47,167 nucleotides of DNA from a virus. Of the stretch, positions 18,701-47,162 are shown in pieces. Position 1 is the first letter of the stretch; each line of letters begins with the position of its first letter. The stretch is taken from IMG/VR virus record IMGVR_UViG_3300009497_000009, positions 1 through 47,167 of that record, one strand, 5' to 3'. The notes under the pieces were generated by a model. That model worked only from the letters and a program-made list of their open reading frames with translations. It made no database searches and had not been told where the DNA came from. The position numbers and the translations under genes are program-made.

Positions 18701-21700
18701 CGTCTCTAACTCCAAGGGTATTGCAAGTGAAGAGGATGCGGCTTGGTACGAAGCGAGTAAAGCTGAGCTAGAAGCTGAGGGATTTGTATTTGATGATATA
18801 GGTGATGAACTAAATAGCGATGAGCGAGATGAGCGAATTGGAGCGCCTTTTGACATCCGCACCGAAGAAACTAGCGATGCTGTTCCTAAAGGGAAAATAA
18901 TTATAAAGGCTGTAGTCAAACCAAGGCGGGTGGTAGACGGGAAGACAGTCAGCCGACCTACCTACGACGTAATTAGAGGAACAGGAACAACGGCTGCAAG
19001 GGATGCCTTAGTTGCTGAAGTATATGCTTTGGAGGATGAAATAACTACAGATAATTTTAATGAAATATCTCCTAAGCTAAAAGCCGCAAGAAAGGCTTTG
19101 AAGGATTACGATGATGCTAATTTCCCTTCATCTAAATCTGTTGCCGCCCCTAAGAAAGCAGCCCCTGAGAAAGTCGCAGATCAGGGCACCGCATCAACAA
19201 AGAAAGATGCATTGTTTACAACACACAGTGAAAGCCTGAACAATGAGGTAGTTAAAGATGCACAAGGAAGAGTAGTTGTTTCTTCTGACGGAGTACCCAT
19301 GGATAGTGGACTGGACTCAGAAAGAACAGTAAATGGGGAGCCTATTATTACTGATCGTAGCTTGCTTGATAGTGATAAAGTAGTAGCAGGAACGACGCTT
19401 GTACTGGAGGTTATAGAGGATGATTGGTGGCTTGGTAACAAAGGTAAGACTCAATATAGAAATGCCGCTGCACATATACCTATATATGTAAAGCTCCCAT
19501 CCGGAGAAGTACTCGGTGTGCTTACTGCTAATGACAGTGCTATGCGTCGTGCTGCCTACCAAGAATATCTGAAGGGCGCACAGGGACAACAAGTTACTGT
19601 AGCAGTTGCTAAGAAGTATCTTAATAACAGAAACAATGCTGTTGTAGAACTGCAAGACGGTACTACAGGCACGTTCCTATCCAGAGTAGATGAGGTGTTT
19701 GGGAACACTCCTCTTGGTGTTGTTACCTACGCAAAGAACCTGAGCAAAAAAGGTTTGACCGTAGCTAATACACAAGGTCTCACGCAAGAAGACCTTGATG
19801 CTATTGCAGAGCTGTCTAACGAGGTGACTAGTGATAAAGTAAGATACGGTCAGGTAGTTGCACTGCACAAAGACTCAAACGGAAAGTGGAAGTATAGCTT
19901 ACTACAGACGGCAAGACTTACTGAAGCAGAGCAAGAAGAAGCATTTAATCTGTTACTTGACTCTTCTCCGGAATCGTACCAGAAACTGGTCGATGAGGTT
20001 GGTTTGAATACACTAAGCCCAGCAGAAGTTGGGGAAGTATCTGTTACATATCTGCAAGTAGAAAAAGACTACATGCGGAATGCGGACAAGAGAGTGATAA
20101 GATTCGCAGTTCCTACACGCTCAGTAAAATCTGAGATGGCAAGAGCTGACTTAGAGAATGGGATGTTTGTAGTTGCATTAGACAACCGAACACTTACAAA
20201 TCTTGCAGACCCAAGTACAGCAGAAGCTACGGCTAAAGCAATACTCAACGGTAAGAAAGGAACAACAGAAGCTGGAATACTTGGTAACCTTATACAGAAA
20301 CTTGTTGAGAATGAGGATGGCTTTATAAATACAAAAGGAGCAGGTTTCCAGATTATAAAAGAGGACATGAGCAAAGAAGAAGCTCTTGCTTTTATAATGT
20401 CGTTGCCCGATGCTGTAAAAAGAACCTTAAAGAATAAGAGAAAGCAGGTAGATATTAACAGACTTAATGCTGACCCATCATACTATAATACTCTTGTAGA
20501 AGAGACAAGAGAAGACCCGCTCCCACTACAAACGGTCTTTGGGCACCGTGGTGTTATTATGACTGACGTTGTTCTGCATAATGGCTCTATGTACAATGGT
20601 ATTGGTCTTGAGTTTGACTTGTCCCAGCTTAAGATTGGGAACAAAAAACCAAAGGCAAACAACATAAAAGTATCTCGTCCTATATCAACAGCAGAAACTA
20701 ATGATGCACAAGCATTGTTTGATGAAGCAGCAAAAGCTCGAGAACAAGAAGTAGGAGAACAAGAATACGATCCCACTCAAGTTACTGATGATGATATAGC
20801 AGAAGCAGAAAAAGCAACCCGGAAGAGGCTTCTCGCTATACTTGCTGAAAGACGCAAGAAAAAAGGCCAACAGGAAACGGGAACAGGAACGGAGACAGAA
20901 ACGAAAACGGATCCAGAGGAAGAGAAGCTGAAGGGCATGGACTTAGAGGATGACGCATTTAGACTGTCTGCTAATAAGGGTAAGCGCTTGAATAAAGCTC
21001 AAGCTATTGCTTGGTTGAAGCAGCGAAACATCCCAGTAGAGTTTTATGAGATTGCAAAGCAGGTAGGTAGTAAAGTTGCACACGGCTATATGAAGAATGC
21101 TGCTGTGTATCTGTGGAACAACGCAGAAGTTGGGACTGAATACCACGAAGCATTCCACTATGTATTCCGCACATCTCTAAGCGAGAAGCAAAGAGAGGGA
21201 TTGTACAAAGAAGCTAGAAAGCGGTTTAATCTCCCCAATGCTACAGAGCTTGAGCTTGAAGAGGCAATGGCAGAGGAGTTCCGTAATTACGTATTTACTG
21301 CACAAGAGACCGGGAAGACTCTTCCTGGGAAGATCCGCAAGTTCTTCAACGATTTGTGGAACTTCATTAAGGCCCTGTTTGTAAATCCTGTAGGCGTAGA
21401 GCAGTTCTATTCTTTGATCGAATCAAACAAGGTTCCAAATAAATATGAAAGAAGCGCTGAGAAGTTTGCAACCAAGGGCGAGGTATACAGATTGGTGAGT
21501 GACTTGGGGAATGACTATGAGATGCAACAACAAGTCCTTGACGTTATCTCTATGCAGTTCGTTGATACATATAACGAAAGCAATCAGATGTTGCAGGGAA
21601 TGTCTCAACTAGAGGGCACAGGAAAAAACAACAAGGTTCTTGCAACTGCACTCCTTGGAACAACAGAACAAGACAAGGGAATTATTGCAGATTGGTTCTT

Positions 21701-24700
21701 GCAGCACTCTTTCTCAACAGAAACTGATGGGTACATGAGTGATGAGGCAATGGAGGCAATTAAAAATGCAAAGAGCTCAGAAGAAATAAAGAACGCTGTA
21801 AAGAAATACAAGCTTCAACGAAAACCCCCTCTGCAGGCATTTATAGAAGGTGAACTTCCTACTACTGTATTTAATAAAGAGGAGAAGACCCAGCGAAACA
21901 CAGCGATTATTTTCTACAATGTATGGAAAAACTGGTTTGACGTTACAGATGAGCTAGGTAACATTGAACAATACGGGTGGAGAGATGCAGCAGCTGCAGA
22001 TCTTCTTAAGTATGGGTTCACTATTCAGACTAGAGTTGCTACACGTACTGCACTGGAGCAAGAGGAAGAAGGGTCTCCTGAACAGGAGGAGGTGAACTTC
22101 GACAAGATCTATGACATTTCTCACTTTGAACAAGACCCACTCAAAGTGGCATCTAAAGAAGTGAGAAACCTGCTGTCTAGAATCGTGGACACAACGCCTA
22201 ACGTATTCGGGATACCTACTTATATAGACGTTGAGGCTACCCTTAGAAAAACAATTGCAGTTACTGCGGGCGCTAAAGGGTATTCAGAGATACTGGGTAG
22301 AATACAAGAGGCTGCTCGTATAGAAGAGATAGAAGCACAAAAGACAGATAGAAAAAGTCTGATACTTGGCCCACTTAAGGACTATCTTAATGGGACTCCT
22401 ACAGCACAAGAGGTTGCGGCACTTACCCGCTTCTTAACTAAGACATACTCAGAGCTTAGAATTGTACAAGAAAATCAGATCGAGACTACTGACGGTGGAG
22501 TAGAGATGTCTGTACAGACTATCAACTCTGACAGAAAGAGTGCAGTTATTAACTGGCAAGACACTTGGAAGAACGACGGACTTCAAACGCTTTCAGTCCC
22601 AAGACCCGGAGCAGTATTTACAGAGACTGAAGATGGGGGTATTGCCTTTAACAACAACATAACTGAGGGTCAAAATAGAATAGACCTGCTTAAAGAGGCA
22701 TTCCTCAACTACGATAGAGAGAACACAGTTGAAGGTAAGGCTACACAGCTAGGTAAAATAATGTGGAACCTTTCTTTGGGTATGGGCAGTACTGAGCAAG
22801 AGGCTACAGATCGCCTCATGTCTTACGTGCTAAAGAATACTACTCTAGACAACAATGAAATATCCAAGATATTTAAGAAGGTAATTTACTTGGCCAACCA
22901 AGCAGTAGACTTTAAGGTAGAGGGCGGAAGAGTAAAAGACGTGATGCTTAAGAAGGGCAAGGTTAGAAACTTCTTTGTATCAGAGGGATCTACAGTAAAG
23001 GAGCTTGCTAATATTGCTGCAGAATACAGTGTCCCAGTTGCAATAGCATATGTAAACGGGAAGGGAAAGACTATCTATCCATACAACCTCCCCACACCAT
23101 TCACTGATTTGATAGAAGATCTCAAACAAAATGCAGCTTCAAATAAGTATGCATTCTTGCAAGGAGATGAGTCTTTCACAGCAATGAACACTGAGCACAA
23201 AGCAATGCTCATGACCTTGATTGCAAATCCAGAATTTGAAATATCCAGCTGGGCACTTGATACTATCAACAATGAGGCATCAGATGACGCTAACATAGAG
23301 TACAAGAAAATGTCCGAACGAGACTCTCTGATACTCAAACTCAATATGTTTGTAAACCAAGGGTCAGCTATAAAGTATGGATGGATACCTGTTTCAACTC
23401 AGGAGACTAGAGGCAGATTGGACTTTGTTAAGTTCCCTAAGATAGAAGAGAAGAACTTCGCAGCTGTAGAAGCAGCAGGCTTGCAACGAGAAAGCTTTAG
23501 TGGAAGACTCAAGAGTGTTGTCATACGTGACTTGGTTCGACTTAGCAATAACCCACGTGTAGCTGAAAACTACAACAACGGCTTTCACTTAACGGGCATA
23601 GTCAATACTAAACTAGGTAGTGGCCTTTTGATGTCTGAAACTGTAAAGGACTATCTACAAAACCCAAAGGGTAAAGAATATCAGGACTTCAATAAGGAGC
23701 TTGACAGACAGGTAAAAGAATACGTAAACACTGTATTCAAACGAAATAGAGAGAACCTCCGCAACGAGCTCTTGCGATACAACATCATACGATTGGTTGA
23801 AGGCAAGCCAGAGTTCTTGGAGAAGTCCAAGCTTGACTCGTCAGTTCAGAAATACGGGGGAGTAAATAGATTCCTCAATAACTATATGATGACAGACATG
23901 CTAGCTCGCATTGAGATGGCAGAGATGTTACGTGGTGGTGTTGTACAATTTGAGAACTTAACCAAGTTCTACAAAAGAATGGGTCTTATACAAACTCCCG
24001 GAGATAAGCTTATGCAGAAGGGAGAGTTTGAAGCTGATCCAGATTACGGAATGGCCCCAACAATTGTGGAGGCCTCTATAGGGAAAATGCAAAACCAAGA
24101 GCCCTTTCATAACGAGGCAGCCGACAATCTTCGAGACCTTTCACTAGCTCCTTTCTATGAAAAGACTATGAAGATGTCTAAAGAGGAGGCACTTAAAAAA
24201 GCAGAAAGCATAGCAAAACAGTACAGAAACGATTTTGGTGACCATACAGATGCCCAAGCATTTGCTTCAGATCTCTTCTACAAAATGTATAAGCAGGGTA
24301 AAGGACAGTGGACATCAGAAGATGACGTGTGGTTTGATGAATATCTGAACAAAAAAGGAGAATGGAAAGGGGATAAATACATAGAGCCTATAAAGCCATT
24401 TGTAAACAATCAGGTTATGGAGAATGGGGCGTCTATATCTGATATGCAGAAGAACTCACTCTTGGTTGTTACGCGACCACTAGCAGAAATGAACACAGTT
24501 CTGGCGGCTATGTATCTTAGAATGAACAAAGCGGGGGACAACATACACATAATAAATACGGAGTCTGCAAAGAAGGGTGCGAAGGGTCAGGAGTTTGCTG
24601 TAAATCAAGAACTTGGAGCGACCATGTTTGAAGGACTTGAAGGAACAGAGATGAGCACAGATGGGTTGTACATACCACAAACTATAAGTGACAAAAGAGC

Positions 24701-27641
24701 TGAGACAGCTAAGATGAATCGTCAGATTCGTAAGGTGCTCCCAACTATGGTTAAGGCAGATGGAGAGTATGATGTAAAAGGAGCAAAGTCCCCAATGTCA
24801 GGAAAAGAGGTTAGTGATAGATATCAAACCTTGCATGAAGAAATCCTTGACGCGCAAGCAAAAAAGCTTTTCAAAGAGCTTGGGTGGGACGAGTTGAAAA
24901 AGAATCCAGGTAACAAAGAAGCACGACTTAAATTCCTGCAGAGAGTGAAAAGCGTTATTATGGATAACGCAATGAAGAATAACAAGCTTGACTCTAACTT
25001 AGATAAACAACTTAGGATCGTAGAGGACATGGTAAATAACACCGTGGACTTTAATGTCCCAACATATATGCCTGTTTATCAGCGGCAGTTACAGAACCAA
25101 ATCTTCTCTCTGTTTAGATCCAATGTGTACCAGGTTAAGCTACCAGGACGTGACCTTGTACAAGCAAACTCTGGAGGTAAGTGGAAGATTGGGGATGAGA
25201 TAAGAGAGCTTAGACATATACATATAGATGAAAAAGGGAATACAGTGGCGGCAGAGATAATGATATCTGAAGACCTGGCAGAAATGCATGGTATAGAGGT
25301 TGGGGATCGCATTATAATGTACCGTATCCCAAACCAGGACTACTCTTCAGCAGTCCCATCTCAAGTTGCTGGTATCCTTCCTCGAGGATACTCAAAGACA
25401 GTTATGGTGGCAGGTGGTATTACAATTCAAACAGGATCTGACTTCGATATTGATAAACTATTTAACCTGTTTGAGAACAAGGATCCCAAGAATAGACTGG
25501 ATAGGTTAAAGAATGAGCTGTTTAATATCTCCTATTCTATATTAATGAATAAGGAAACAGCACCCTACCTGTTTGCCCCACTTAATCAGGATACACTAAA
25601 CGATCTAGCCGACAATCCTGAAATTGCAAAAGAAGAAGTCAGAGATTTTGATGACCCACTTGTAGAAATCAAGATGGAGTCTAACTATAAAAGTGCTGCA
25701 ACACTTGTGGGTGGGTATGCTAATGCTATTGCAGGTATGAGCATTGCTAATGTTGCATCTCAGTTCGAGAATGAAGAATACGTACAGAACGGTATAGCAG
25801 TAAATGCATCTAAGAAATTCATACTAAATGACACAGCACTTGGTCTGATATCTACTAGGTCAGAGATGACAAACGAAAGAAATATTGCTGGAATCGTAGA
25901 GAGACTTTCTGCAGCGCTAGATGCTGGTAGTAAATTAATCCACAGTACGCTTAACGATAATGATATTACTCTCAACGCTACAGTGTATCTTAAGAGTATA
26001 GGATTTGGGGACCGAGATGTAGTGGCATTAATGACGACCCCCCTTGTTAGGGAGTTTGTTGAAAGTAAAAGAGACAACAGAAACAAGAGTAACCAGAGAG
26101 TATTCCAAGATTTAGGAATTAATAGAAAGACCTACAGCAAAATTGCAAGCTTTGATAGCAGCATACTGCCCCCAGCTTTAAATACTGAGGAACTTGAAAG
26201 AGTTTCTAAAGAGGGGAATAGAAAAGATCCGGTTGCAAAAGAAGCATTGTACGCATTTGCGCATGCACTTGTAGCAGGTAACAGCTTGTCAGACTTCTAC
26301 AGAGTCATTGCTGCAGATAACCTGGATGGGATGGGGGACCTTGCTGAGATTGAGGCATACCTGGATGTGCTAGATAACTACAAGAGAAGCGGTAACAGAA
26401 ACATCGTTGGTTACTCAGAGGTGGAGAAGATACTTAAGGGGGATGCATATAGAATTAGTAGAGCCTTCTTCAACATCATAGATGAGTCGATGCAGATATC
26501 ATCGGAGCTGTTTATGAGCGGGACGAAGGGGGTTAGAGAGTTTAAACAGTTGCTGAAGGATGTTGCTGGAAAGCAAACTATGACTGCTGCAGAGCACAGA
26601 TTTGTAGACAGAGCATTGTTCTACCACATCTTTACTAAGGAGGGTTCTCCGATAGGATCATTGATGCAGAAGTCTGTAGTAAAGTCGATGCTTCTTGATC
26701 CTAAAAACAACTTGTACAAACAAGTGAAAGACCTGATCGAGGAGATTCCAGCATTGAGAAGTAACTCTATGATTGCGTCTATTAAAGAGGGACCTAAATA
26801 CAATGATCCTACTACAAGAGTGTTTGGAATAAGCATAGAGAACACGGAGAAAATGTCACTCAGAGCAAGAGAAACCCAACGTCAGTCGTTTGGAGATCTA
26901 TTGTACAGACCGGAGAAATACACTAGTGACCCACAAGAACAGAAGAAGATCCAGAATATGGGTAAGAGACTGGTACTCAACTCAATCGTAACAACCGGAC
27001 TTGCACCTTCTTATGGTACATACTACGACGCCATCCCAATAGACTTCTTTATGGAGATAGCTGACGAGAGTGGGAAGACCTTGATGCAGTACTTGCGAGA
27101 AGAATTCCAGAATGTCAAGAATGACGAGAGATACTTTGACGATTTCATGTTCAGCTTTATGCAGAACTACGGTGCCGCTACTGTAGCATCTGCACCACTT
27201 GTTGGACGAATGCCACGTTCGTATGTGCAACGCGGTGAAGGACTGTACGGATTGCCTGCATCAGTAGAACTAGATGGTCGTCCGGCGCGATATGTAACAA
27301 GAGCTAATTACAGTAAGGGTGTAGATAAGATGTCAGTGTATGAGTATAACAACACAGATGAGATGTATCACCTAATACAGAGCACGAGTATAACTAATAA
27401 GATTATCGAGCTCAACCTCAGAGACAGAAATGGGGATATTGTAACTAGCAGTTTCTTTGCTGAAAGCCAAGGAGAAAGAAAAGTAAGGATGGCAGGTAAA
27501 GGTAAAGGAAAAGATAAAGTTGTAGATTTACATTCTAGAGCTGGAATTACAAAGACTATGTCTGATCCTATGACTATGAACGAGGAGACAAGAAGAATCA
27601 GAACTACAGACAGCTCTTCAGATATATCACATGTTTGCTAA
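15729..27641 (+). CDS. Giant virion RNA polymerase with zincin metallopeptidase motif (3,970 aa)
   Basis: This frame is open for 3,970 codons. The N-terminus has two NPITGLP repeats (about residues 7-25) and hydrophobic stretches near 194-218 and 475-493, then a long Lys/Glu-rich helical part to about 1,000. HEAFH at 1806-1810 fits the zincin HExxH zinc site. The polymerase part lies further on. YRIPNQ (3198-3203) is followed by SDFDID, with Asp at 3238, 3240 and 3242. This matches the RxPTLHR...NADFDGD layout of bacterial beta prime, where R425 precedes D460 by 35 residues (39 here). QKNS (K2908) and SAKKG (K2948/K2949) are candidate beta-type barrel lysines. The product should be packaged, enter the cell with the DNA and transcribe early genes. 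The protease could cleave the chain or other giants. The family reading is strong; cleavage is conjecture. Confidence 0.85.
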   Translation: MSNKGTINPITGLPQQNTLNPITGLPFTTAEELGAFQAKVNRQRPQVSVAPGFAATTGDFSSYADRGVTLSGGPSYKDYSTIRALNQSAGEKLLIGAKKGTVTGASAFVNGLLGMAGALDFAAGSNLNPKSRGSLVGTAQDWTNLVNTEEWRENSRKNNPHYYTKTELDNIGNFNPFSENNSFTWNFLTDKIFDGIGFLVGTAASIYVTAGTGVIGRVGQLGNISKGLATWRTAKTIKSGQSLSKALGTYRTTKNVASKIYNGAAKTEAAFLSAVGEASIEGKETGKQVYEKLYAEALRKKTAMGLPAQLSAQEVQQLKLQALEAEGAAFYSNVGVLSLSNSIMFRGLFKQFGKAAGTSRWLRAATAAERAAKPSLRVVDKLSGLPGYGIRQTAQAARFSAPFLKTMAAEGSEEAAQYAITEGMIEYEMAKMHDSGLGDIVESLIDTNKLRIAAESSPEVASKMLETFSNPEAREQFVIGSIVGILGGGIQGYKESKASRKQRDEQATLLNNEGMFRAARGAESVNKQSFFLQRMNEAEQAGDREQFEYYQRRLQAEQILQHYNKGSLDLFREMLEDSKSLPENEFKELYGISPETVIDQNKLVDDIVSRSKEIEKSAEMIDELYTSSPTVGAGKLFMSKEEKELEKNNLQDEAIYKNYLKLELGSLKFIDGAISEKVDKIEEMFPGLLTDVLVTQTYKKGKEADYEEGTRTKSVNMRDRIRNYVRNRFGEVALEEGKFSLDVQQNLEKNLNTILANNQEHTEFETVRKELVELRELISQRGNAVTAYNNLNRSPELRDLAISGTKIALEREAQTKRDALVDQIIADTVTPEQLKAKADRILQQGSISEEARKRANDEIAARTKTRSDAQQKWDTMSRPAVENLEGLSPLLDSYREQYLKDRSQEAPIRDTTVEQKRKADEAAEIIKRRKQEGARLAAENRKTGEQSAPGQQPTEKEQKGLQRRIDRSKKDFAAATSLEEKAKALLRYLNSVSNSKGIASEEDAAWYEASKAELEAEGFVFDDIGDELNSDERDERIGAPFDIRTEETSDAVPKGKIIIKAVVKPRRVVDGKTVSRPTYDVIRGTGTTAARDALVAEVYALEDEITTDNFNEISPKLKAARKALKDYDDANFPSSKSVAAPKKAAPEKVADQGTASTKKDALFTTHSESLNNEVVKDAQGRVVVSSDGVPMDSGLDSERTVNGEPIITDRSLLDSDKVVAGTTLVLEVIEDDWWLGNKGKTQYRNAAAHIPIYVKLPSGEVLGVLTANDSAMRRAAYQEYLKGAQGQQVTVAVAKKYLNNRNNAVVELQDGTTGTFLSRVDEVFGNTPLGVVTYAKNLSKKGLTVANTQGLTQEDLDAIAELSNEVTSDKVRYGQVVALHKDSNGKWKYSLLQTARLTEAEQEEAFNLLLDSSPESYQKLVDEVGLNTLSPAEVGEVSVTYLQVEKDYMRNADKRVIRFAVPTRSVKSEMARADLENGMFVVALDNRTLTNLADPSTAEATAKAILNGKKGTTEAGILGNLIQKLVENEDGFINTKGAGFQIIKEDMSKEEALAFIMSLPDAVKRTLKNKRKQVDINRLNADPSYYNTLVEETREDPLPLQTVFGHRGVIMTDVVLHNGSMYNGIGLEFDLSQLKIGNKKPKANNIKVSRPISTAETNDAQALFDEAAKAREQEVGEQEYDPTQVTDDDIAEAEKATRKRLLAILAERRKKKGQQETGTGTETETKTDPEEEKLKGMDLEDDAFRLSANKGKRLNKAQAIAWLKQRNIPVEFYEIAKQVGSKVAHGYMKNAAVYLWNNAEVGTEYHEAFHYVFRTSLSEKQREGLYKEARKRFNLPNATELELEEAMAEEFRNYVFTAQETGKTLPGKIRKFFNDLWNFIKALFVNPVGVEQFYSLIESNKVPNKYERSAEKFATKGEVYRLVSDLGNDYEMQQQVLDVISMQFVDTYNESNQMLQGMSQLEGTGKNNKVLATALLGTTEQDKGIIADWFLQHSFSTETDGYMSDEAMEAIKNAKSSEEIKNAVKKYKLQRKPPLQAFIEGELPTTVFNKEEKTQRNTAIIFYNVWKNWFDVTDELGNIEQYGWRDAAAADLLKYGFTIQTRVATRTALEQEEEGSPEQEEVNFDKIYDISHFEQDPLKVASKEVRNLLSRIVDTTPNVFGIPTYIDVEATLRKTIAVTAGAKGYSEILGRIQEAARIEEIEAQKTDRKSLILGPLKDYLNGTPTAQEVAALTRFLTKTYSELRIVQENQIETTDGGVEMSVQTINSDRKSAVINWQDTWKNDGLQTLSVPRPGAVFTETEDGGIAFNNNITEGQNRIDLLKEAFLNYDRENTVEGKATQLGKIMWNLSLGMGSTEQEATDRLMSYVLKNTTLDNNEISKIFKKVIYLANQAVDFKVEGGRVKDVMLKKGKVRNFFVSEGSTVKELANIAAEYSVPVAIAYVNGKGKTIYPYNLPTPFTDLIEDLKQNAASNKYAFLQGDESFTAMNTEHKAMLMTLIANPEFEISSWALDTINNEASDDANIEYKKMSERDSLILKLNMFVNQGSAIKYGWIPVSTQETRGRLDFVKFPKIEEKNFAAVEAAGLQRESFSGRLKSVVIRDLVRLSNNPRVAENYNNGFHLTGIVNTKLGSGLLMSETVKDYLQNPKGKEYQDFNKELDRQVKEYVNTVFKRNRENLRNELLRYNIIRLVEGKPEFLEKSKLDSSVQKYGGVNRFLNNYMMTDMLARIEMAEMLRGGVVQFENLTKFYKRMGLIQTPGDKLMQKGEFEADPDYGMAPTIVEASIGKMQNQEPFHNEAADNLRDLSLAPFYEKTMKMSKEEALKKAESIAKQYRNDFGDHTDAQAFASDLFYKMYKQGKGQWTSEDDVWFDEYLNKKGEWKGDKYIEPIKPFVNNQVMENGASISDMQKNSLLVVTRPLAEMNTVLAAMYLRMNKAGDNIHIINTESAKKGAKGQEFAVNQELGATMFEGLEGTEMSTDGLYIPQTISDKRAETAKMNRQIRKVLPTMVKADGEYDVKGAKSPMSGKEVSDRYQTLHEEILDAQAKKLFKELGWDELKKNPGNKEARLKFLQRVKSVIMDNAMKNNKLDSNLDKQLRIVEDMVNNTVDFNVPTYMPVYQRQLQNQIFSLFRSNVYQVKLPGRDLVQANSGGKWKIGDEIRELRHIHIDEKGNTVAAEIMISEDLAEMHGIEVGDRIIMYRIPNQDYSSAVPSQVAGILPRGYSKTVMVAGGITIQTGSDFDIDKLFNLFENKDPKNRLDRLKNELFNISYSILMNKETAPYLFAPLNQDTLNDLADNPEIAKEEVRDFDDPLVEIKMESNYKSAATLVGGYANAIAGMSIANVASQFENEEYVQNGIAVNASKKFILNDTALGLISTRSEMTNERNIAGIVERLSAALDAGSKLIHSTLNDNDITLNATVYLKSIGFGDRDVVALMTTPLVREFVESKRDNRNKSNQRVFQDLGINRKTYSKIASFDSSILPPALNTEELERVSKEGNRKDPVAKEALYAFAHALVAGNSLSDFYRVIAADNLDGMGDLAEIEAYLDVLDNYKRSGNRNIVGYSEVEKILKGDAYRISRAFFNIIDESMQISSELFMSGTKGVREFKQLLKDVAGKQTMTAAEHRFVDRALFYHIFTKEGSPIGSLMQKSVVKSMLLDPKNNLYKQVKDLIEEIPALRSNSMIASIKEGPKYNDPTTRVFGISIENTEKMSLRARETQRQSFGDLLYRPEKYTSDPQEQKKIQNMGKRLVLNSIVTTGLAPSYGTYYDAIPIDFFMEIADESGKTLMQYLREEFQNVKNDERYFDDFMFSFMQNYGAATVASAPLVGRMPRSYVQRGEGLYGLPASVELDGRPARYVTRANYSKGVDKMSVYEYNNTDEMYHLIQSTSITNKIIELNLRDRNGDIVTSSFFAESQGERKVRMAGKGKGKDKVVDLHSRAGITKTMSDPMTMNEETRRIRTTDSSSDISHVC

Positions 27642-34112: not shown

Positions 34113-35222
34113 TCACACAGTTGTAGTATTAGATTCTAAAATCTCTTTGCGCATCTCTTCCCATTCCTGGTCAGTGAGTGCTGCATACTTAGATGAATGA
34201 TACATACTACCATTCACACCAGCCAAGCTAGAGTGTACAAAGTACTGAAGGCAACGGATAGCACCATCAGTAGAGTTAGGGATTGCACCAATATGCATAG
34301 GGTCTACAAAGACATTGTGAATCTCTCCCCCATAACCATTGATGTAATACAAACCACCGATATGCAGACCACGAACACAAACAGCATTATCATCAGTGTT
34401 TACCTGATCCCATGATTCCAACTTGTGAATGCGTCCGACACGAATGAAGTGTCCAAGAGCGTCCCCACAAAAGAATGCATCACCGCTACTTCCCATAACA
34501 GCTGGCTCAAAGAGTCTGTTCTCCACAAATTCTGGGAGTCCTTCTGAGTCAATTTCACCAGTATCTACGTTAAAGGTGCGCTTGTAACGAGGCATGCGAT
34601 CCCCAGTCTCAGCATCAAACTTATGCATGACTTCTCGAGACACTTTGTAACCATTGAGGAGACCCTCGTTAGTTATCTTGATTTGATAAACAGTAGCAAG
34701 ATCCGTAGCTACATTTTCGGCAAGACCTTTATCCATAAAGATTTTCTTGTTCTCCGGATGCACGTACTTCATGTTTACAAAATCAGCAAAGCGCTCAGCA
34801 AAATCTGCACCTTTCTTTCTGAGCAACGGATTGCGCAAGAACCTAGTCCACAACTTTACTACAGGGAGAAAGTCAATATCCTTGTCAACAGAATCCATAA
34901 TTCTCTCTACAAGAGACTGCGGCATAGGGATGTCAGATATCTCCTCATCATCGTGGGTCAAGAAATACTGCTTAGTCAGCTCATTGTATTTCAAGTAACT
35001 ACATTTTGACTCAATAAGCTGCTGTGCATCTATTCCATTGTCCTCAACAATTTGTACAATTCCATGAGTGTACATTTCATACTCTTCAAAAGACTCTGCA
35101 GCATTAGCCTGCACAGACAAATCAAAGAGTCGCTTGTACGTCACTTTGTTGTAGGGAACAACGCTGAAGTCTTCACCTATAGAAACAGATATGCTGTCTT
35201 CTACGACATTTAAATTTACCAT
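34113..35222 (-). CDS. rIIB: rIIB-like protein
   Basis: This 369-residue protein follows rIIA directly and its C-terminal half carries an rIIB-type pattern: GYKVSREVMHKFD (residues 198-210), a GDRMPRYKRTF segment and GLHIGGLYYINGYGGEIHNVFVDP near 285-308. In T4, rIIA and rIIB act together at the membrane in exclusion and lysis timing, though their biochemistry is poorly defined. Residues 1-120 are acidic and helical. The start sits after an A-rich leader (TTAACAAAAATAAT) and no Shine-Dalgarno site is seen. The pairing with rIIA is the strongest support; the functional analogy with T4 is inference. Confidence 0.8.
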   Translation of the reverse strand: MVNLNVVEDSISVSIGEDFSVVPYNKVTYKRLFDLSVQANAAESFEEYEMYTHGIVQIVEDNGIDAQQLIESKCSYLKYNELTKQYFLTHDDEEISDIPMPQSLVERIMDSVDKDIDFLPVVKLWTRFLRNPLLRKKGADFAERFADFVNMKYVHPENKKIFMDKGLAENVATDLATVYQIKITNEGLLNGYKVSREVMHKFDAETGDRMPRYKRTFNVDTGEIDSEGLPEFVENRLFEPAVMGSSGDAFFCGDALGHFIRVGRIHKLESWDQVNTDDNAVCVRGLHIGGLYYINGYGGEIHNVFVDPMHIGAIPNSTDGAIRCLQYFVHSSLAGVNGSMYHSSKYAALTDQEWEEMRKEILESNTTTV

Positions 35223-35232
35223 ATTATTTTTG

Positions 35233-37998
35233 TTAATTGGTTTGAGGTGGGGTTAAACTAAACCAAAGTCTCGGAACCTCAACGTCCGGGACTTCGATAT
35301 CAAATTTGTTGTAAGCAGAAAATAGAGTAGTAAGTGGGTCCATAATCTCAGTAAGCTTACCGCTGTGACTACAGGCAGTTAGGCCTTCGTGTATAGCCTT
35401 CATAAACTCCCCGATATCAGCATATGCTTCCTTTAATACTGTAATCAAACCCGCTAAGTCTTCGTCGTATGCATCGATGGTGGGAACATCTACAACAAAG
35501 AGCTCTCTGGATTTCTGCTTACGTAAAGATACATCTCCGCTATTGCAAACCCTTTGATACTCTATAAAGTTTTCTAGGTACTGCCTGAACTCTATTGCTT
35601 CCTTTGAAGAATCATTGTCAGTCAGTGCACTGGTATGAATACAGTGCTGACTGTGTCTGTATATTCTTTTGTAGGCTCTCGAAAGATCCGGCAATAGAGT
35701 TTCACACGCACGAGCACCCATCCAACTAAACTTATGCATCCATGCTGTTTCTGTAATAACGTTATGTGTCAATACTCTACGTAAATACTCACTAACTACA
35801 AGACCCCCATCTTCTGTAGAGGTAAAGAAGAACTCATCAATGTGTTTCCAATGTGGGTTCTTCTCTGCATACTTGAGGTTAGTCTCTGAGAGTCTAAACA
35901 ACTGCGGAGCTTTTAGGTCCTTAGTTTTGTCCAGCTCAAAGTAATCTTTCCTCCAAGCATTGCTAGGAACTACCTCTCTAAACAGGATAGGGCTAGTAGA
36001 CCATGGCTCTTGAATCCTGCAACCGACCTTATCCCATTTAGGGATACGCTTATACAATATCTTAGCTGCCATTAGCATCTTGTAATCATCTGCCTTAGAA
36101 CAATAATAGGTCTCGTTCTCAGATTCTAGAATAGTCTGAATCTTAGGTTCGAACTTGTCCCATGTCCACTTTTGATTACTAAATCGTAGGGAGAAGCCTA
36201 CGATACGTTTCTCAAGTACACGTTGTTCTGCGGGAGTGAGGTGGTGTCCTGCTGTTTCTTCTTCTTTAAACTTAATTCCTGTTGCGAATGCCTCTGGGAC
36301 GTCTATATCAGAGTAACTATGCAGCAGAGAAGTGTGATTACTAAGGCAGTTATTTATCTTACTTCTTTGCAATTCATAAGCTGCCTCCTCCTTCAGTATT
36401 CTTGCTTTGTGATCATCGTCAAAGGCTTCTGAGAGCTCTTTAACAAACTTGTCACTGCTAACTGCTGAGATCAAGACAAACTTATCAACGCCTTGAGACG
36501 TAAGATAAAGGTCCTTTACCTTAGATACACTACCTTCTTCTGCTACATAGACTCTGGATAAATCAATCCCGGTCCAATCAGTTACATCTGTACGAGCAAT
36601 CCCGTCCCTATATCCGGTTGCATGAACTACTCTAACCCGATAGCCCTTGAACATAGATTTAGGATTTGAGAACTTAATACCTGTGTTCTCAAACTTAGGT
36701 CTAATGCTAGAAACATCCACCATACGAGCAACATGCTTAATGGCGCTAAGCTCATCAGTGCTACTCACACTATCGGTGTTTCCCTTGTACAGTATGTTTG
36801 AACAGAGTTGTATCCACTTTATAAAATCATCTTCTTTTAGTGCTTCTTCTACTATTTTTGTTGCGTCTTCTGCTGCCTTCTCCAGCATCCCTTGTACATA
36901 CTTCTTTGTATTATCATTCCATATAACTTTCTCACGTGACGGAGTCACATCTACACCGTCTTGAATTACAATCTCTTCCCCGGCATCGTTGATGTATGAC
37001 TGCCGCATAGGACACTTAATGCCTATGTTGCCCCACAACTCCTCCATTTCGAGTTCACGAAAGTCAATGCGTCCGTAGTTGATACCCGTAGTATCCCCAG
37101 GATTCTTGACAATCACGATGTGTGGTCGTGCATACCAACCAGAGTCTGTCACAATAAGATTGTCTGTGTTCAGGAGGATATCTCTACTAATTGTAGGAGA
37201 GTATGACCTCCCTTGAGAATCTACTATGTCAAACCTGACTGATGGTATATAGCAAAGCTGCTCTTCTACTGCATTACTAAATGCTCTGCGAGTGTGCTTC
37301 TTTGCCCCAAGGGAAATTTTAGTGTAATTCTTTCCGCTGTAGTTTTTGTAATACGCTGGTTCTCCATTGCTAAGAGTTATTTGTCCATCGGAATCCCACT
37401 TCCCTATGACAAAGTCCGTCTTGTACGGGTAGCAGTTCATCTTGAACAGCTTACCGTTGTATGCACTTTCAATGCTGTAGTAAGGAACACCAGTAGACAA
37501 CGCTACTTTAGAACCTAAACCGAATGCACCGAAGTTCTCAGCAGTATTACGCTTTGTAGAATATCCAAGTTCAAGCATACCCTCAAGACGACGTCCCCCG
37601 ATGCCAACACCGAAGTCCATAATCTCTACAGTATCACAGTATCCTGAACCTGAATCGTCCTCAATGTATCTGACCTTGACATGGTTGTTCTCCATATCCA
37701 GATAGTTGAGGTCGTAGTACTCACGATTGAAGTTAGATGCTTCATACTCTTCTCCTGAACGAGTAATGAAGTAGTCTTCAACCTGAGCTTTACCTGCAAG
37801 TATCTCTACTGCAATTTCCTTCTCCCGTTGTGAATCGCAGGCGTTAGTCACCAGCTCACGTATGGTCGAAGGTATTGGAGTAGAATATTGCGTAGCTTGT
37901 AGTACATCAAAGATTAGATGCTCTGCACCTTTGCTAATCTTTTTCTCTAGCCCACGCGTGTTTGATTGGGTTGTTTGCCCAACTGTTTTTATGCTCAT
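35233..37998 (-). CDS. rIIA: rIIA-like protein with GHKL ATPase fold
   Basis: This 921-residue protein starts with an N-terminal GHKL (Hsp90/MutL/histidine-kinase type) ATP-binding domain. The N box is RELVTNACDSQ (E48, N52, D55), the G1 box is DFGVGI (128-133) and the lid/G2 box is FGAFGLGSK (156-164). The remainder is long and mixed alpha/beta without other motifs I recognise. The rIIA-rIIB pair is shared by T4 and crAss-like phages and in T4 protects against prophage exclusion. The ATG at 37,998 lies inside the end of the previous 130-residue gene, giving a 65-base overlap, which suggests coupled expression. ATP binding is well supported; the downstream function is not known. Confidence 0.88.
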   Translation of the reverse strand: MSIKTVGQTTQSNTRGLEKKISKGAEHLIFDVLQATQYSTPIPSTIRELVTNACDSQREKEIAVEILAGKAQVEDYFITRSGEEYEASNFNREYYDLNYLDMENNHVKVRYIEDDSGSGYCDTVEIMDFGVGIGGRRLEGMLELGYSTKRNTAENFGAFGLGSKVALSTGVPYYSIESAYNGKLFKMNCYPYKTDFVIGKWDSDGQITLSNGEPAYYKNYSGKNYTKISLGAKKHTRRAFSNAVEEQLCYIPSVRFDIVDSQGRSYSPTISRDILLNTDNLIVTDSGWYARPHIVIVKNPGDTTGINYGRIDFRELEMEELWGNIGIKCPMRQSYINDAGEEIVIQDGVDVTPSREKVIWNDNTKKYVQGMLEKAAEDATKIVEEALKEDDFIKWIQLCSNILYKGNTDSVSSTDELSAIKHVARMVDVSSIRPKFENTGIKFSNPKSMFKGYRVRVVHATGYRDGIARTDVTDWTGIDLSRVYVAEEGSVSKVKDLYLTSQGVDKFVLISAVSSDKFVKELSEAFDDDHKARILKEEAAYELQRSKINNCLSNHTSLLHSYSDIDVPEAFATGIKFKEEETAGHHLTPAEQRVLEKRIVGFSLRFSNQKWTWDKFEPKIQTILESENETYYCSKADDYKMLMAAKILYKRIPKWDKVGCRIQEPWSTSPILFREVVPSNAWRKDYFELDKTKDLKAPQLFRLSETNLKYAEKNPHWKHIDEFFFTSTEDGGLVVSEYLRRVLTHNVITETAWMHKFSWMGARACETLLPDLSRAYKRIYRHSQHCIHTSALTDNDSSKEAIEFRQYLENFIEYQRVCNSGDVSLRKQKSRELFVVDVPTIDAYDEDLAGLITVLKEAYADIGEFMKAIHEGLTACSHSGKLTEIMDPLTTLFSAYNKFDIEVPDVEVPRLWFSLTPPQTN

Positions 37999-43335: not shown

Positions 43336-44130
43336 TCAGTAAGAGCTTATAAAGTTCTTCTTTATTTTCTTACCGCGACCTTTCAAGCCCTTATTGTGCA
43401 AGAGTTTAAAGTATCCGCACCAGTTCCCCATTCCAGACTGTACCTGGAATGTGCCCAGATTCTTGTTTATCTGAGAGAACATCCGGTCTACATCAAATGC
43501 AGGGTCAGTGCTCAGCGAGGCAAGAGCTTTAAGAACTGCGCCTTGAGCCCATACTGTCCCATCAATAGGGTAATCCTGATGAATAAACTCTGTCACCTTA
43601 TCTAAGATAATTTGTCTTGTTTCATTCAGCTCATATACATACTTACCGTCCTTGAAAGCCTTTGTGATAGTACCTCCAGTGTCAACATTCACACAAGTAA
43701 GAGTGCGCAAAGCAGACAAATTGGAATCAGGATATTTCTTCCACAAATCATTGAGCTTTTTGTAGTTCTCATTATCAATGTGATGAACTAACCAGTCTTG
43801 AACCTTCCATTTCTCGACTTCGTTGTTTACTTCAGCGAGCATGTCTTTGAAGTAGTCCTCATTGCCTTTGTAGTTTACATCAAACTTAACTACGTACAGA
43901 GAGTTAGATTCCCCATTCTCAATAGTCTTCTCATGGGCTTTTACCCTATTCTGACCATCAAGGATGTAGTTGTCTTTTGTAAGCAATACAGGGCTGACAT
44001 TAAACCCAAACTTAGAGATACTCTTCGCAAGATTATCAATGTGCCTTTGCTCGAGCTTGAAGCGATTGTTGTCAATGTACTTGACATTAGGGAGCTTCGT
44101 AACCTTCTGTAATGTTAGACTGTTAACCAT
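43336..44130 (-). CDS. ParB/Srx-fold domain protein
   Basis: This 264-residue protein contains a ParB N-terminal-like segment. IDNLAKSISKFGFNVSPVLLTKDN (31-54, shown as SISKFGFNVSPVLL) leads to the conserved LDGQNRVKAH box (57-66). This fold occurs in plasmid partition ParB, sulfiredoxin and phage nucleases or CTP-binding proteins. The remainder is helical and has CNNKG-type Cys residues near the end. It sits between the SF2 helicase and the 182-residue gene. The arginine in the box (R62) is the usual nucleotide-contact residue. DNA binding, nuclease or CTPase activity cannot be chosen from sequence. Confidence 0.75.
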   Translation of the reverse strand: MVNSLTLQKVTKLPNVKYIDNNRFKLEQRHIDNLAKSISKFGFNVSPVLLTKDNYILDGQNRVKAHEKTIENGESNSLYVVKFDVNYKGNEDYFKDMLAEVNNEVEKWKVQDWLVHHIDNENYKKLNDLWKKYPDSNLSALRTLTCVNVDTGGTITKAFKDGKYVYELNETRQIILDKVTEFIHQDYPIDGTVWAQGAVLKALASLSTDPAFDVDRMFSQINKNLGTFQVQSGMGNWCGYFKLLHNKGLKGRGKKIKKNFISSY

Positions 44131-45287
44131 TTTACGTTGTTTAAAGATTTAACTGCTTGTTTTATCCACTTCTCTTCTTGAGAATCGTGAACGTAGACTA
44201 TATAGATCTTCCCGATCTTATCTGGGGTACTGAGTCGAAGGAGTCTACCAACCCTCTGAATCATAGGTAAGGACTTACTAACCAAGCCAACAATAATGCC
44301 GACACTAGCGTCAGGCACATCAAAACCTTGGTTAAGTGCTTTTGTACTGCAAAGGATACGATTGGATCCATCTCGAAACGATTCAAGTACCTCCTTTCTT
44401 CCTTTTTTAGTATGCCCCGAATGATACGCAAGTGCTGAAAGAGAATCAGCCATAGCGTCAGTAAACCTATTAGTCCCAGAAAATACAAGAATTTTATCAT
44501 CACTGTGTTGTGCTACGAGTTCCTCAGCCTTGTCAATTTTAGCTGTAGAATGCTGCACCACTTTTGTACGCTCTGATATTGCATTGAAGAACATCTTTGC
44601 GGCACCAGCATCACCAGGAATCTTCTTTGCTAAGATAAGCTTAGCTGCAGTAAATGCATCAAAGTCCCCAATACGATACTTGGCTTGCAAGAATTTGTTC
44701 TGTGCTTTCTTGTATGCTGCTTGGTCCTCGTCGTTGAGCTCAACCGGGATACAAACTATCTCGTATGGGCTCACTAATCCTAGCTCTACACACTCATCTA
44801 AAGAGATGTGAAAACGAATAGGGGCAAGCTTCATAAGATAGTTACGGTATTCATCATCTTCAGGGACCGTAGCTGTCATGCATAATAACCTGTCATACGT
44901 ATTGTTCTCAAAGAACTTACGGTATTTCGGGCTTATGCCTAAGTGTACCTCATCACACACAACAATAGCATAATGCATAGCTTCTAGCTTGTAAGCTGAT
45001 TGATAGCACATGATATCTGTGTGTTCTAGAACATCATCTGCATCCCACTTCTTAAACTCTTCTGCAAATTGATCTTGCAATTGAGTAGTGGGGACAAGAA
45101 CTAAGGCTCTTTCTCCGGGTTGCAATAGCTTCTTAACAGCTAATACCCCACAACGAGACTTACCAAATCCTGTGCCTGCGATGATGCTTCCAATAAAATC
45201 ATCTTTAGCCCATGCATTTAGGGCTTTGCGTTGTTGTTGATTTTTTACTTCATGTATCTGTTTGTTTTTCATTAATTCAATCTTCAT
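44115..45287 (-). CDS. Superfamily 2 DNA/RNA helicase
   Basis: This 390-residue protein has the full SF2 motif set: motif I GTGFGKS (38-44), Ia LVPTTQL (64-70), II DEVH (112-115), III TAT (138-140), IV/V with KILVFSGTNR (265-274) and TKALNQGFDVPD (315-326), and VI QRVGRLLR (344-351). It is close to the phage UvsW/ResIII type, which remodels branched DNA and R-loops and can drive replication mode changes. It overlaps both the ParB-like gene (16 bases) and the DnaA-like gene (11 bases), so it is coupled to both. Confidence 0.92.
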   Translation of the reverse strand: MKIELMKNKQIHEVKNQQQRKALNAWAKDDFIGSIIAGTGFGKSRCGVLAVKKLLQPGERALVLVPTTQLQDQFAEEFKKWDADDVLEHTDIMCYQSAYKLEAMHYAIVVCDEVHLGISPKYRKFFENNTYDRLLCMTATVPEDDEYRNYLMKLAPIRFHISLDECVELGLVSPYEIVCIPVELNDEDQAAYKKAQNKFLQAKYRIGDFDAFTAAKLILAKKIPGDAGAAKMFFNAISERTKVVQHSTAKIDKAEELVAQHSDDKILVFSGTNRFTDAMADSLSALAYHSGHTKKGRKEVLESFRDGSNRILCSTKALNQGFDVPDASVGIIVGLVSKSLPMIQRVGRLLRLSTPDKIGKIYIVYVHDSQEEKWIKQAVKSLNNVKWLTV

Positions 45288-45729
45288 TTTTCTGTTTTAA
45301 TAGTTCAATTCGACTAGCTAGTGCCGATAAATCTCCCGCATCTTTTACTACTTCCATTTTCTTTAAGAGTTTTAAACAGACATCATACCTCTCCTCAAAG
45401 TATGGATATGTCTCTATGTAGTCCTCAGCTGTTCTACAACTGTGACAAATTGTAGCATGATCTCTACCCAAAAACTTTCCTATAGCAGCATAGGTTAGTG
45501 TTGTGCTGTCTTTTACTATCTTTGCAAACGCATGCCGTGCAAGTACACAGTTGTGTATTCTGGTTCTACCCATGACGTCGTCTCTATCGACATTGAAAGC
45601 CAGAACACAGATGTCTATAAACTGACTAAGATCTACAGACAGTGCAGTAAAGGAATTAAGGGCTTTAAGTTTATCTCGGTTTGCAATACCGGGGTAAACC
45701 CAAGGGCTGAGTTTTTCTTTTATCATCAT
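45277..45729 (-). CDS. Stand-alone DnaA domain IV-like initiator protein
   Basis: This 150-residue protein ends with a helix-turn-helix matching DnaA domain IV: RIHNCVLARHAFAKIV (57-72) and AAIGKFLGRDHATICHSCRT (81-100), which corresponds to the GRDHTTVLHA signature that binds DnaA boxes. The AAA+ domain of chromosomal DnaA is absent, so it cannot assemble as DnaA does on its own. It could mark an origin for the helicase, act as a repressor or recruit host DnaA. It is coupled (ATGA) to the small membrane protein upstream and overlaps the SF2 helicase downstream. Confidence 0.88.
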   Translation of the reverse strand: MMIKEKLSPWVYPGIANRDKLKALNSFTALSVDLSQFIDICVLAFNVDRDDVMGRTRIHNCVLARHAFAKIVKDSTTLTYAAIGKFLGRDHATICHSCRTAEDYIETYPYFEERYDVCLKLLKKMEVVKDAGDLSALASRIELLKQKNED

Positions 45730-45872: not shown

Positions 45873-45900
45873 AATTAAAATGTGTTTAGTTTGTGAATCG

Positions 45901-45974
45901 TACTCCCGATAGGAATCGAACCTATGACCTACTGCTTAGAAGGCAGTTGCTCTATCCAGCTGAGCTACGGGAGC
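45901..45974 (-). tRNA. tRNA-Arg (anticodon UCU)
   Basis: The 74-base minus-strand sequence folds as a cloverleaf. The acceptor GCTCCCG pairs with CGGGAGT; the D arm is GCTC...GAGC; the anticodon stem ACTGC/GCAGT has loop CTTCTAA, giving anticodon TCT; and the T arm is ATAGG-TTCGATT-CCTAT. A discriminator A is present and CCA is not encoded. It reads AGA, a codon used often throughout the window. Confidence 0.95.
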
Positions 45975-45985
45975 TTAATACCTCA

Positions 45986-46002
45986 CAGGTGTCGGTGACC
46001 TG
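45986..46002 (-). repeat. Short inverted repeat between GH16 and tRNA-Arg
   Basis: A 5-bp inverted repeat (CAGGT, 7-base loop, ACCTG) occupies most of the 42-base gap between the stop of the glycosidase gene and the tRNA-Arg gene. It lacks a T run, so it is not a typical terminator and could help processing of the tRNA from a shared transcript. Confidence 0.35.
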
Positions 46003-46016
46003 CTGCTATGTAACAG

Positions 46017-46751
46017 TCATAAATGACGAGGTAAGTGCGCTTTATATGGTGTGTACCTGAATTGTTTTATTACAAAATCACTATAAAAGTCTCTATCGCT
46101 ATCTTTTTGAAAGTGATTGTTGATGACAACTCTCATCTTCTGATCATTAAAGTAAGCTAGAGTGTCCTTATCAGTGATCTCTCTAACAAGGTAATCATTG
46201 AATGAAATGCTAATCTTATCAGGTAACCAAAGTAGTGAATACTTAAGAAAGTGTTTAGCTGGATTCTTGAAACCAAAGAAGTGAGTCTTCGCTCTGAGAT
46301 TATAGTTCTTCTCCCCAATGCCATGTGTCCATAGATTAGTTTGAAGATTCCAGAAGCCCAAAGGGTTAAAGCGGTTAAACTTTAAATACCCATTTCGTTT
46401 GTCAGTGTAGCCTTCTAAAATATCAATTTCAGGTGGCCAGGTTTCAGATCCCCACAACCAAAATGCAGGCCATTTATTTCTGCCTCTAGGCATCATAGCT
46501 TCTATCTCAAATCGACCGTAACTAAAATCTTCAACACTACAGATCAAACCAGTACCTAAGTTTGGTTTATATGTTTCACCATTGTAGTGTTGGATCTCAC
46601 TCGGACTTTTATCGGTAGTTAAATGCAGATATCCTTTATTATCTACATTTACGCATTCTGGATCATACCAACAAAATGATTTGTCAGGATGAACTCTTCC
46701 CCATCTTTCTTTCGTTAACCACTCATGACCAGACCATGTAATATTATCCAT
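46017..46751 (-). CDS. Glycoside hydrolase family 16-like endoglycanase
   Basis: This 244-residue protein has the GH16 core. FSYGRFEIEAMMP (76-88) and WPAFWLWG (94-101) lead to the active-site EIDILE (E108 nucleophile, D110, E113 acid/base), the beta-bulge ExDxxE form seen in laminarinases, agarases, porphyranases and carrageenases. Several Trp residues could line the sugar cleft. There is no signal peptide and no carbohydrate-binding or virion-anchoring domain, so it is either released at lysis or incorporated by a partner. It sits between two tRNA genes, which suggests an accessory insertion. Substrate cannot be told from sequence. Start is the first ATG after a 6-bp inverted repeat. Confidence 0.87.
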   Translation of the reverse strand: MDNITWSGHEWLTKERWGRVHPDKSFCWYDPECVNVDNKGYLHLTTDKSPSEIQHYNGETYKPNLGTGLICSVEDFSYGRFEIEAMMPRGRNKWPAFWLWGSETWPPEIDILEGYTDKRNGYLKFNRFNPLGFWNLQTNLWTHGIGEKNYNLRAKTHFFGFKNPAKHFLKYSLLWLPDKISISFNDYLVREITDKDTLAYFNDQKMRVVINNHFQKDSDRDFYSDFVIKQFRYTPYKAHLPRHL

Positions 46752-46769
46752 ATCTTATACATTTAAGAT
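46752..46769 (-). promoter_or_regulatory. Inverted repeat directly before the GH16 start codon
   Basis: In the 19-base gap between tRNA-Met and the glycosidase ATG there is a perfect inverted repeat, ATCTTA-AATGTA-TAAGAT on the minus strand, ending right next to the start codon. It could be an RNA hairpin that controls translation, or an operator. No Shine-Dalgarno site is seen. Confidence 0.4.
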
Positions 46770-46770
46770 G

Positions 46771-46844
46771 TGCGCCTACTAGGACTTGAACCTAGGACCT
46801 GCGGATTATGAGTCCGATGCTCTAACCAACTGAGCTATAGGCGC
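46771..46844 (-). tRNA. tRNA-Met (anticodon CAU)
   Basis: The 74-base minus-strand sequence forms a cloverleaf with acceptor GCGCCTA/TAGGCGC, D arm GCTC...GAGC, anticodon stem TCGGA/TCCGC (one mismatch or wobble at the end) and loop CTCATAA with anticodon CAT, and T arm CTAGG-TTCAAGT-CCTAG. The fully paired first acceptor position argues against initiator tRNA. An isoleucine tRNA with a modified C34 is the main alternative. CCA is not encoded. Confidence 0.92.
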
Positions 46845-46853
46845 TGCTCTTTA

Positions 46854-47162
46854 TTAGGAATCCAGTTTATCTAGAATGTCTTCGTCTATCTTCTGACTAT
46901 TCTCAGATAACCATCTCTCTACGAGCTTTTGGATCTCTTCGGTTTCTTCTACCTCTTTTAGATCTTCATCATAAACAGTAGAGTTTGTAATATGCAACAT
47001 ATCTACCTCAGGTCTCATGTCAGTATGGTAACCTTTTGTTCCCCAAAATTCATACTCCCCGATTCCATGGTCAACAAATACTACTGCTGCTTCTATCTCA
47101 ATGTCCATGCTGTACTCCGTCCCAAGCTCGAGACCTTCGTAGTCTAAATAAACGATTTCCAT
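46854..47162 (-). CDS. Hypothetical acidic protein (102 aa)
   Basis: This 102-residue protein is strongly acidic (many Glu and Asp). It has a beta-rich first half (EIVYLDYEGLELGTEYSMDIEIEAAVVF, shown as EIVYLDYEGLELG and YSMDIEIEAAVVF), a GYHTDM segment near residue 44 and a helical, charged C-terminus (residues 68-102). The ATG is at 47,160-47,162, five bases from the window edge, so an upstream start in the next part of the genome is possible. It lies upstream of tRNA-Met and the GH16 gene. No family is recognised. Confidence 0.6.
   Translation of the reverse strand: MEIVYLDYEGLELGTEYSMDIEIEAAVVFVDHGIGEYEFWGTKGYHTDMRPEVDMLHITNSTVYDEDLKEVEETEEIQKLVERWLSENSQKIDEDILDKLDS

Follow-up and report, generated by a model that had tools for sequence, protein, structure and literature searches.

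A gene for an intact GH16 glycoside hydrolase that lacks a secretion signal was identified in a 47,167-base linear virus record, hereafter the window, and comparison with related loci indicates that one crAss-like phage species acquired it as a one-gene insert where its tRNA-Met gene ends (3' side). As judged from sequence, the gene belongs to a large, mostly phage-borne group of signal-less GH16 proteins under purifying selection. Phage GH16 genes have already been reported; to the extent of our searches, what is new is the defined signal-less group, the crAss-like carrier, and the base-exact insertion. The enzyme's catalysis, its substrate, when and where it acts, and whether the phage gains from it are inferred.

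An intact GH16 enzyme on a laminarinase-type scaffold

The gene lies on the minus strand at 46017..46751 and encodes 244 residues that match the Pfam family Glyco_hydro_16 (PF00722) with E=3.2e-17 and a score of 63 bits (cut-off 22). The earlier note, made from the letters of the window, had described an intact ExDxxE active site, and this is what we find: the catalytic motif EIDILE occupies residues 108-113, and its E, D and E are invariant in 48/48 aligned relatives. Invariant across this 48-row alignment are W94, P95, A96, F97, W98, W105, P106, P107, E108, I109, D110 and E113. The gene is not a chance reading frame, because contigs of the same species also encode it, its homologues are under purifying selection, and the active site is invariant in all 48 aligned relatives.

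An AlphaFold2 model based on the 48-row alignment (mean pLDDT 92.7, pTM 0.91) predicts a single beta-jelly-roll at residues 3-235, with PDB GH16 matches covering residues 3-240. Neither the model nor these matches revealed a second domain, in agreement with the note's claim that the protein has no virion domain. The PDB structure matches are GH16 enzymes (Z about 20-22), and in a second comparison laminarinases lead, the GH16_3 enzymes ZgLamA (4bow) and the Thermotoga laminarinase (3azy) reaching a Z of about 22 and an rmsd of 2.3-2.4 Å over about 203-206 residues, at only about 18-23% identity. These laminarinases share with the window protein the jelly-roll, the ExDxxE motif with its beta-bulge, and a WPA...WPX-type pattern; unlike them, the phage protein lacks both a signal peptide and additional modules, and its loop before ExDxxE (WPPEID) is shorter. 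Lichenases, carrageenases and mucin O-glycanases trail the laminarinases by about 1-2 Z, so the fold has no power to pick the substrate. The viral structure library BFVD returned distant matches only, with no close relative; even its best hits do not exceed 18% identity.

The WPA...WPX pattern, given for GH16_1, GH16_3 and GH16_9 (PMC6827312), is found at residues 94-96 and 105-107. For GH16_3 the published pattern is WPA...W(M/L)X...WPX, with A, K, R, M or L at the X of the third motif (PMC6827312); the window protein has the WPA and W-L/M motifs, whereas its third motif reads WPP, with P in place of the residues listed. GH16_3 enzymes also possess a conserved His on the strand adjoining the catalytic motif (PMC6827312), to which position 141 of our group may correspond. 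In 43/48 rows this position holds His; the window protein, L042 and L088 have Trp there. Since Trp replaces the conserved His, the window protein and L042 may act on a different substrate or with lowered activity. The window protein is likely an active, retaining endo-beta-glycanase on a laminarinase-type (GH16_3-like) scaffold.

The carrier is treated as a distant crAss-like phage

The top-listed matches of the window's DnaB-like helicase are mostly crAss-like genomes, and the PolA of a contig of the same species (L001) matches crAss001 and cr-series phages at 25-30% identity over most of its length. On the basis of these replication proteins, the carrier is treated as a distant member of the Crassvirales. 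Replication genes occupy the minus strand of the window, and large open reading frames (1634, 1186, 930, 3970 and 1290 aa) the plus strand, one of which matches PHROG 15100, a virion structural protein. The frame of 930 aa (12940-15732) had no match among 50,697 phage records. In the giant frame of 3970 aa (15729-27641), residues 1-657 had no match in the PDB. Two adjoining minus-strand genes, at 34113-35222 and 35233-37998, match the RIIB and RIIA lysis-inhibitor families, respectively, which to our knowledge are unexpected in a crAss-like phage.

A single-gene insertion between two tRNA genes

ARAGORN detected exactly two tRNAs in the whole window, both on the same minus strand as the GH16 gene and placed around it as the earlier note had stated: tRNA-Met(CAU) upstream (46770..46844) and tRNA-Arg(UCU) downstream (45900..45974). 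All the surrounding features share this strand, and the GH16 gene sits inside the replication module. Past the tRNA-Arg, the syntenic anchor is a protein with a DnaA C-terminal domain (45277..45729; PF08299, E=5e-13, and synteny), next to a DEAD/ResIII helicase (44115..45287), which served as the anchor for finding relatives. The anchor on the other side (46854..47162) is the C-terminal part of a 146-aa uncharacterised protein that is whole in L001. A scan for promoters and terminators found promoter-like sites no commoner in the window than in shuffled sequences.

Three IMG/VR contigs (L001, L002 and L003) belong to the window's species, since their DNA is 98-99.9% identical to it; within the part that they cover, their GH16 protein matches at 100% amino-acid identity. 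Through the neighbouring helicase, 31 related loci were gathered; wherever the contig extends far enough, they keep PolA, the tRNA cluster, the DnaA-C protein and the helicase in this order. Outside the window's species, none of these has the GH16 gene: all 12 related crAss-like loci that show the cluster lack it, and L008 is no exception, even though its helicase is 92% identical to that of the window. The two tRNAs stand 2 bp apart in L011 and L013, enclose a tRNA-Lys in L009 and L012, and enclose a 51-aa open reading frame in L008. A search for PF00722 in the records of 15 relatives, many of them fragments, gave no match, and at this locus the gene is carried only by contigs of the window's species. 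The earlier note had suggested an accessory insertion in a variable site, as opposed to a gene fixed in all relatives; the relatives, which have either nothing or something different inserted between these two tRNAs, bear out this suggestion. The cluster between PolA and the helicase varies among crAss-like relatives in tRNA content, spacers and small open reading frames (L008:827-1309, L009:8607-9037, L011:5380-5618, L020:3725-7534), and its spacers resemble shuffled modules, the 3' spacer of the L009 tRNA-Lys recurring in L008 without the tRNA.

The junctions could be read to the base. In the empty sites of L010 and L014, the tRNA-Met end GGCGCAC directly joins TTACCTCGTCATTTATGACTG (TTATCTC... 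in L014), followed by tRNA-Arg. In the window, GGCGCAC is followed by ATCTTAAATGTATAAGAT and then by the GH16 start, and at the 3' end of the gene the sequence ...TATAAA-GCGCACTTACCTCGTCATTTATGA precedes the point where the older spacer resumes. Comparison of these junctions therefore defines an insert of 735 bp at 46035..46769 with a 6-bp terminal repeat; an 18-nt leader precedes codons 1-237 of GH16, and a single GCGCAC makes up the rest. The left copy of the repeat (46770..46775) is the 3' end of tRNA-Met, and the right copy (46035..46040) is read as Ala-His codons near the C-terminus of the enzyme. The codons LPRHL and the stop (46017..46034) come from the older spacer between the two tRNAs (TTACCTCGTCATTTATGA), whose 18 bases are identical in the GH16-free spacer of L010 and differ once each in L009, L012 and L014; the rest of this conserved spacer, recognised by comparison with the GH16-free relatives, lies at 45975..46016. 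The last seven residues, AHLPRHL, and the stop are consequently a captured tRNA tail and spacer and not original GH16 sequence. Given that the closest homologue, L042, ends in ...FKYIPHEVH, the native end of the window protein was swapped just past the domain. No integrase or recombinase is encoded in the insert, where GH16 is the sole open reading frame. The repeat flanking it spans only 6 bp and could be microhomology; possible routes of entry are a duplication at a staggered cut and microhomology recombination.

Such a locus could hold passive cargo, that is, a gene that a permissive tRNA site picked up not long ago and that brings the phage no benefit. Its restriction to one species, the variability of the site, and the replacement of His141 fit this explanation, to which we nevertheless give little probability: the reading frame and the active site are intact, two contigs of the window's species differ by 6 synonymous and 1 non-synonymous changes (few as these are), and the group as a whole is under purifying selection.

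A large, mostly phage-borne GH16 group

The view of the gene as a lone piece of cargo, implicit in the earlier note, proved incomplete. A profile that combined the window protein with two homologues from huge phages retrieved 171 confirmed viral contigs in IMG/VR, and a 48-row profile retrieved 236, some of which may be general GH16. Complete members are mostly about 230-250 aa long and typically start with M-(few residues)-I-x-W-S-G-Y-E-W-L-T-Q-E-R-W-G. In a quick tree with SH-aLRT support only, for which a non-exhaustive set of cellular GH16 was picked for its similarity to the query, L042 and the window form a pair (99) within a 51-row set (96) that stands apart from the sampled cellular GH16 and includes the members on bacterial contigs L120, L123, L121 and L122. 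Among the phage records, only two matches covered more than 80% of the query, both in metagenomic phages of 630-640 kb, and a plasmid search yielded only distant GH16 (26-30% identity among the best matches listed). No full-length model of the group was found in PHROGs, and none above the cut-off in NCBIfam.

Many of the carriers are T4-like large phages. The T4 capsid protein Gp23 was detected in 18/48 tested records (15/40 and 3/8), many of which are fragments. L203 and L214 make up another group, which has DnaB and Sak4-like genes and in which Gp23 gave no hit. The four members on bacterial contigs fall into two lineages, and none of 394 other Bacteroidota genomes contained a member (E<=1e-25). 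The idea of an exclusively viral group was dropped on account of these two lineages, whose signal-less genes have bacterial-type neighbours in conserved order: a peroxiredoxin and a tricorn protease in L120 and L123, and a DEAD-box helicase in L121 and L122. A further member, L119, comes from a single-cell genome labelled Prochlorococcus; it is probably phage DNA, because a T4-type capsid gene is found elsewhere in the same assembly, and an infected cell or an attached phage is a possible source.

The group is, by codon comparison, under strong purifying selection. The informative pairs, rich in changes and without saturation of dS, gave dN/dS values of 0.05-0.20; the pair L046/L047 is uninformative with three changes, the window and L002 gave 0.04 from seven changes, and two pairs had saturated dS.

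Absence of a signal sequence and place of action

The window protein has no hydrophobic N-terminus (maximum 12-residue Kyte-Doolittle mean 0.09), just as the note had said of the secretion signal. A hydrophobic N-terminal stretch was found in 0/48 aligned family proteins, some of whose starts had been trimmed to the conserved ATG, versus 35/36 cellular GH16 proteins. When the longest ATG starts were used, two of 86 (L061 and L072, which are neighbours in the tree) showed a signal-like hydrophobic extension; the high score of L057 derives from a stretch without an ATG. The two genes (L061:4935-5711 and L072:4905-5696) begin with the extension at an operonic position, 5 bp past the preceding gene or overlapping it, and their products read MISTLLFSLLLISIN... 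and MGKILLLLLLL.... Most group members thus appear to be made without a signal, while the L061/L072 sub-lineage probably exports its enzyme, which hints at a target beyond the cytoplasm. Because the window gene belongs to a large signal-less phage group, the absence of a signal is a group trait and not an accident of capture.

These observations bear on the possibility that the enzyme is the product of an auxiliary metabolic gene, with which the phage would aid laminarin digestion by the living host and so feed its own production. In the parts of two studies available to us, viral GH16 genes from kelp and diatom blooms are read in this way (PMC11126160, PMC11019789), and laminarinases are the best structural matches of the window protein. 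Missing signals make such feeding hard to accept for the group, since polymeric laminarin outside a living cell is out of reach for an enzyme confined to the cytoplasm, and nearly all the cellular GH16 proteins compared do carry a signal; we regard an auxiliary function as distinctly unlikely. The published laminarinase-like genes are likewise GH16 genes in phages of probable Bacteroidota hosts, and one of the two studies reports an independent viral GH16 cluster. Compared by description, the available parts of both mention neither a missing signal nor an insertion junction, and no crAss-like phage as carrier (PMC11126160, PMC11019789).

Genomic neighbourhood and the role of the enzyme

The recognisable neighbours of GH16 in other phages encode clamp loader, thymidylate synthase, ribonucleotide reductase, GroEL, helicase loader, and sugar-nucleotide and cofactor functions; none of the 25 most frequent neighbour PHROGs (of 93) is a family of tail, head or lysis proteins. 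GH16 is co-directional with its upstream neighbour in 43/46 contexts, often with a 4-bp overlap, and therefore usually belongs to replication or metabolic operons. This arrangement suggests that the enzyme is made early or in the middle of infection, and not from a lysis cassette.

The same evidence led us to reject a virion gene as the first choice. A depolymerase packed in, or attached to, particles to open the capsule at entry would have a parallel in Curtobacterium phage minor tail proteins, which share the GH16 motif region; there it is part of a tail protein, and the match covers 22-38% of the query. The window protein is a single domain without a virion-anchoring part, the most frequent neighbour families are non-structural, and the capsid gene (gp23) is distant from GH16 in most T4-like contigs, so that a virion role is very unlikely. 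Two contigs of 250-290 kb (L101 and L102) have a second, weak hit resembling Gp23 at a distance of 1-2 kb from GH16 (G031:180999-181247 and G032:170687-171217).

The reading we favour, with confidence slightly short of even, is that the enzyme meets an extracytoplasmic glycan at lysis; the earlier note had likewise raised a possible attack at lysis, on host capsule or algal polysaccharide. T4 lysozyme is a small, cytoplasmic, signal-less glycanase for which release at lysis is proposed; such endolysins provide a working analogy only, as their fold, family and substrate differ from those of the window GH16, which is not seen next to a holin or lysis gene. In a comparable manner, the GH16 enzyme would be made and build up in the cytoplasm, and the breach of the inner membrane at lysis would let it reach a host glycan: a beta-glucan- or beta-galactan-type exopolysaccharide, a capsule, or a periplasmic or matrix glycan. 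Thinning of this glycan around the burst cell could allow progeny to leave more easily. Release at lysis is weakened in part because the neighbours in other phages are replication and nucleotide genes and not lysis or tail genes.

Alternatively, the enzyme may act in the cytoplasm during infection, cutting nascent capsule or exopolysaccharide assembled at the inner face of the membrane, or storage or imported glucan, with sugar nucleotides freed or the surface stripped against superinfection as the supposed benefit. Replication and nucleotide genes adjoin GH16 in unrelated phages and nearly all members lack a signal peptide, both of which agree with action inside the cell. A precedent is the beta-1,3-glucanase of chlorovirus PBCV-1, also a virus-encoded GH16, which is made very early, is gone by 90 min, and has as its proposed role the breakdown of a storage glycan of the host (PMC5408694); this enzyme is closest to GH16_3 but unclassified (PMC6827312), and its virus infects a eukaryotic alga. 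The apparent signal sequences of L061 and L072 speak against cytoplasmic action. We also know of no cytoplasmic beta-glucan in the likely Bacteroidota hosts, and consider this explanation unlikely.

A broader proposal, possible but doubtful in our assessment, is that a phage-owned, cytoplasm-made GH16 in unrelated large phages serves a dedicated, undescribed step of infection, either the clearing of a host or matrix beta-glycan at lysis or the cutting of nascent surface polysaccharide from the inside. Should the group prove to be both signal-less and owned by phages, the laminarin-feeding interpretation would become doubtful for many viral GH16 genes, and a lysis or intracellular role would come to the fore. 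The base-exact junction, for its part, shows how a single gene of cargo can enter the tRNA cluster of a crAss-like phage.
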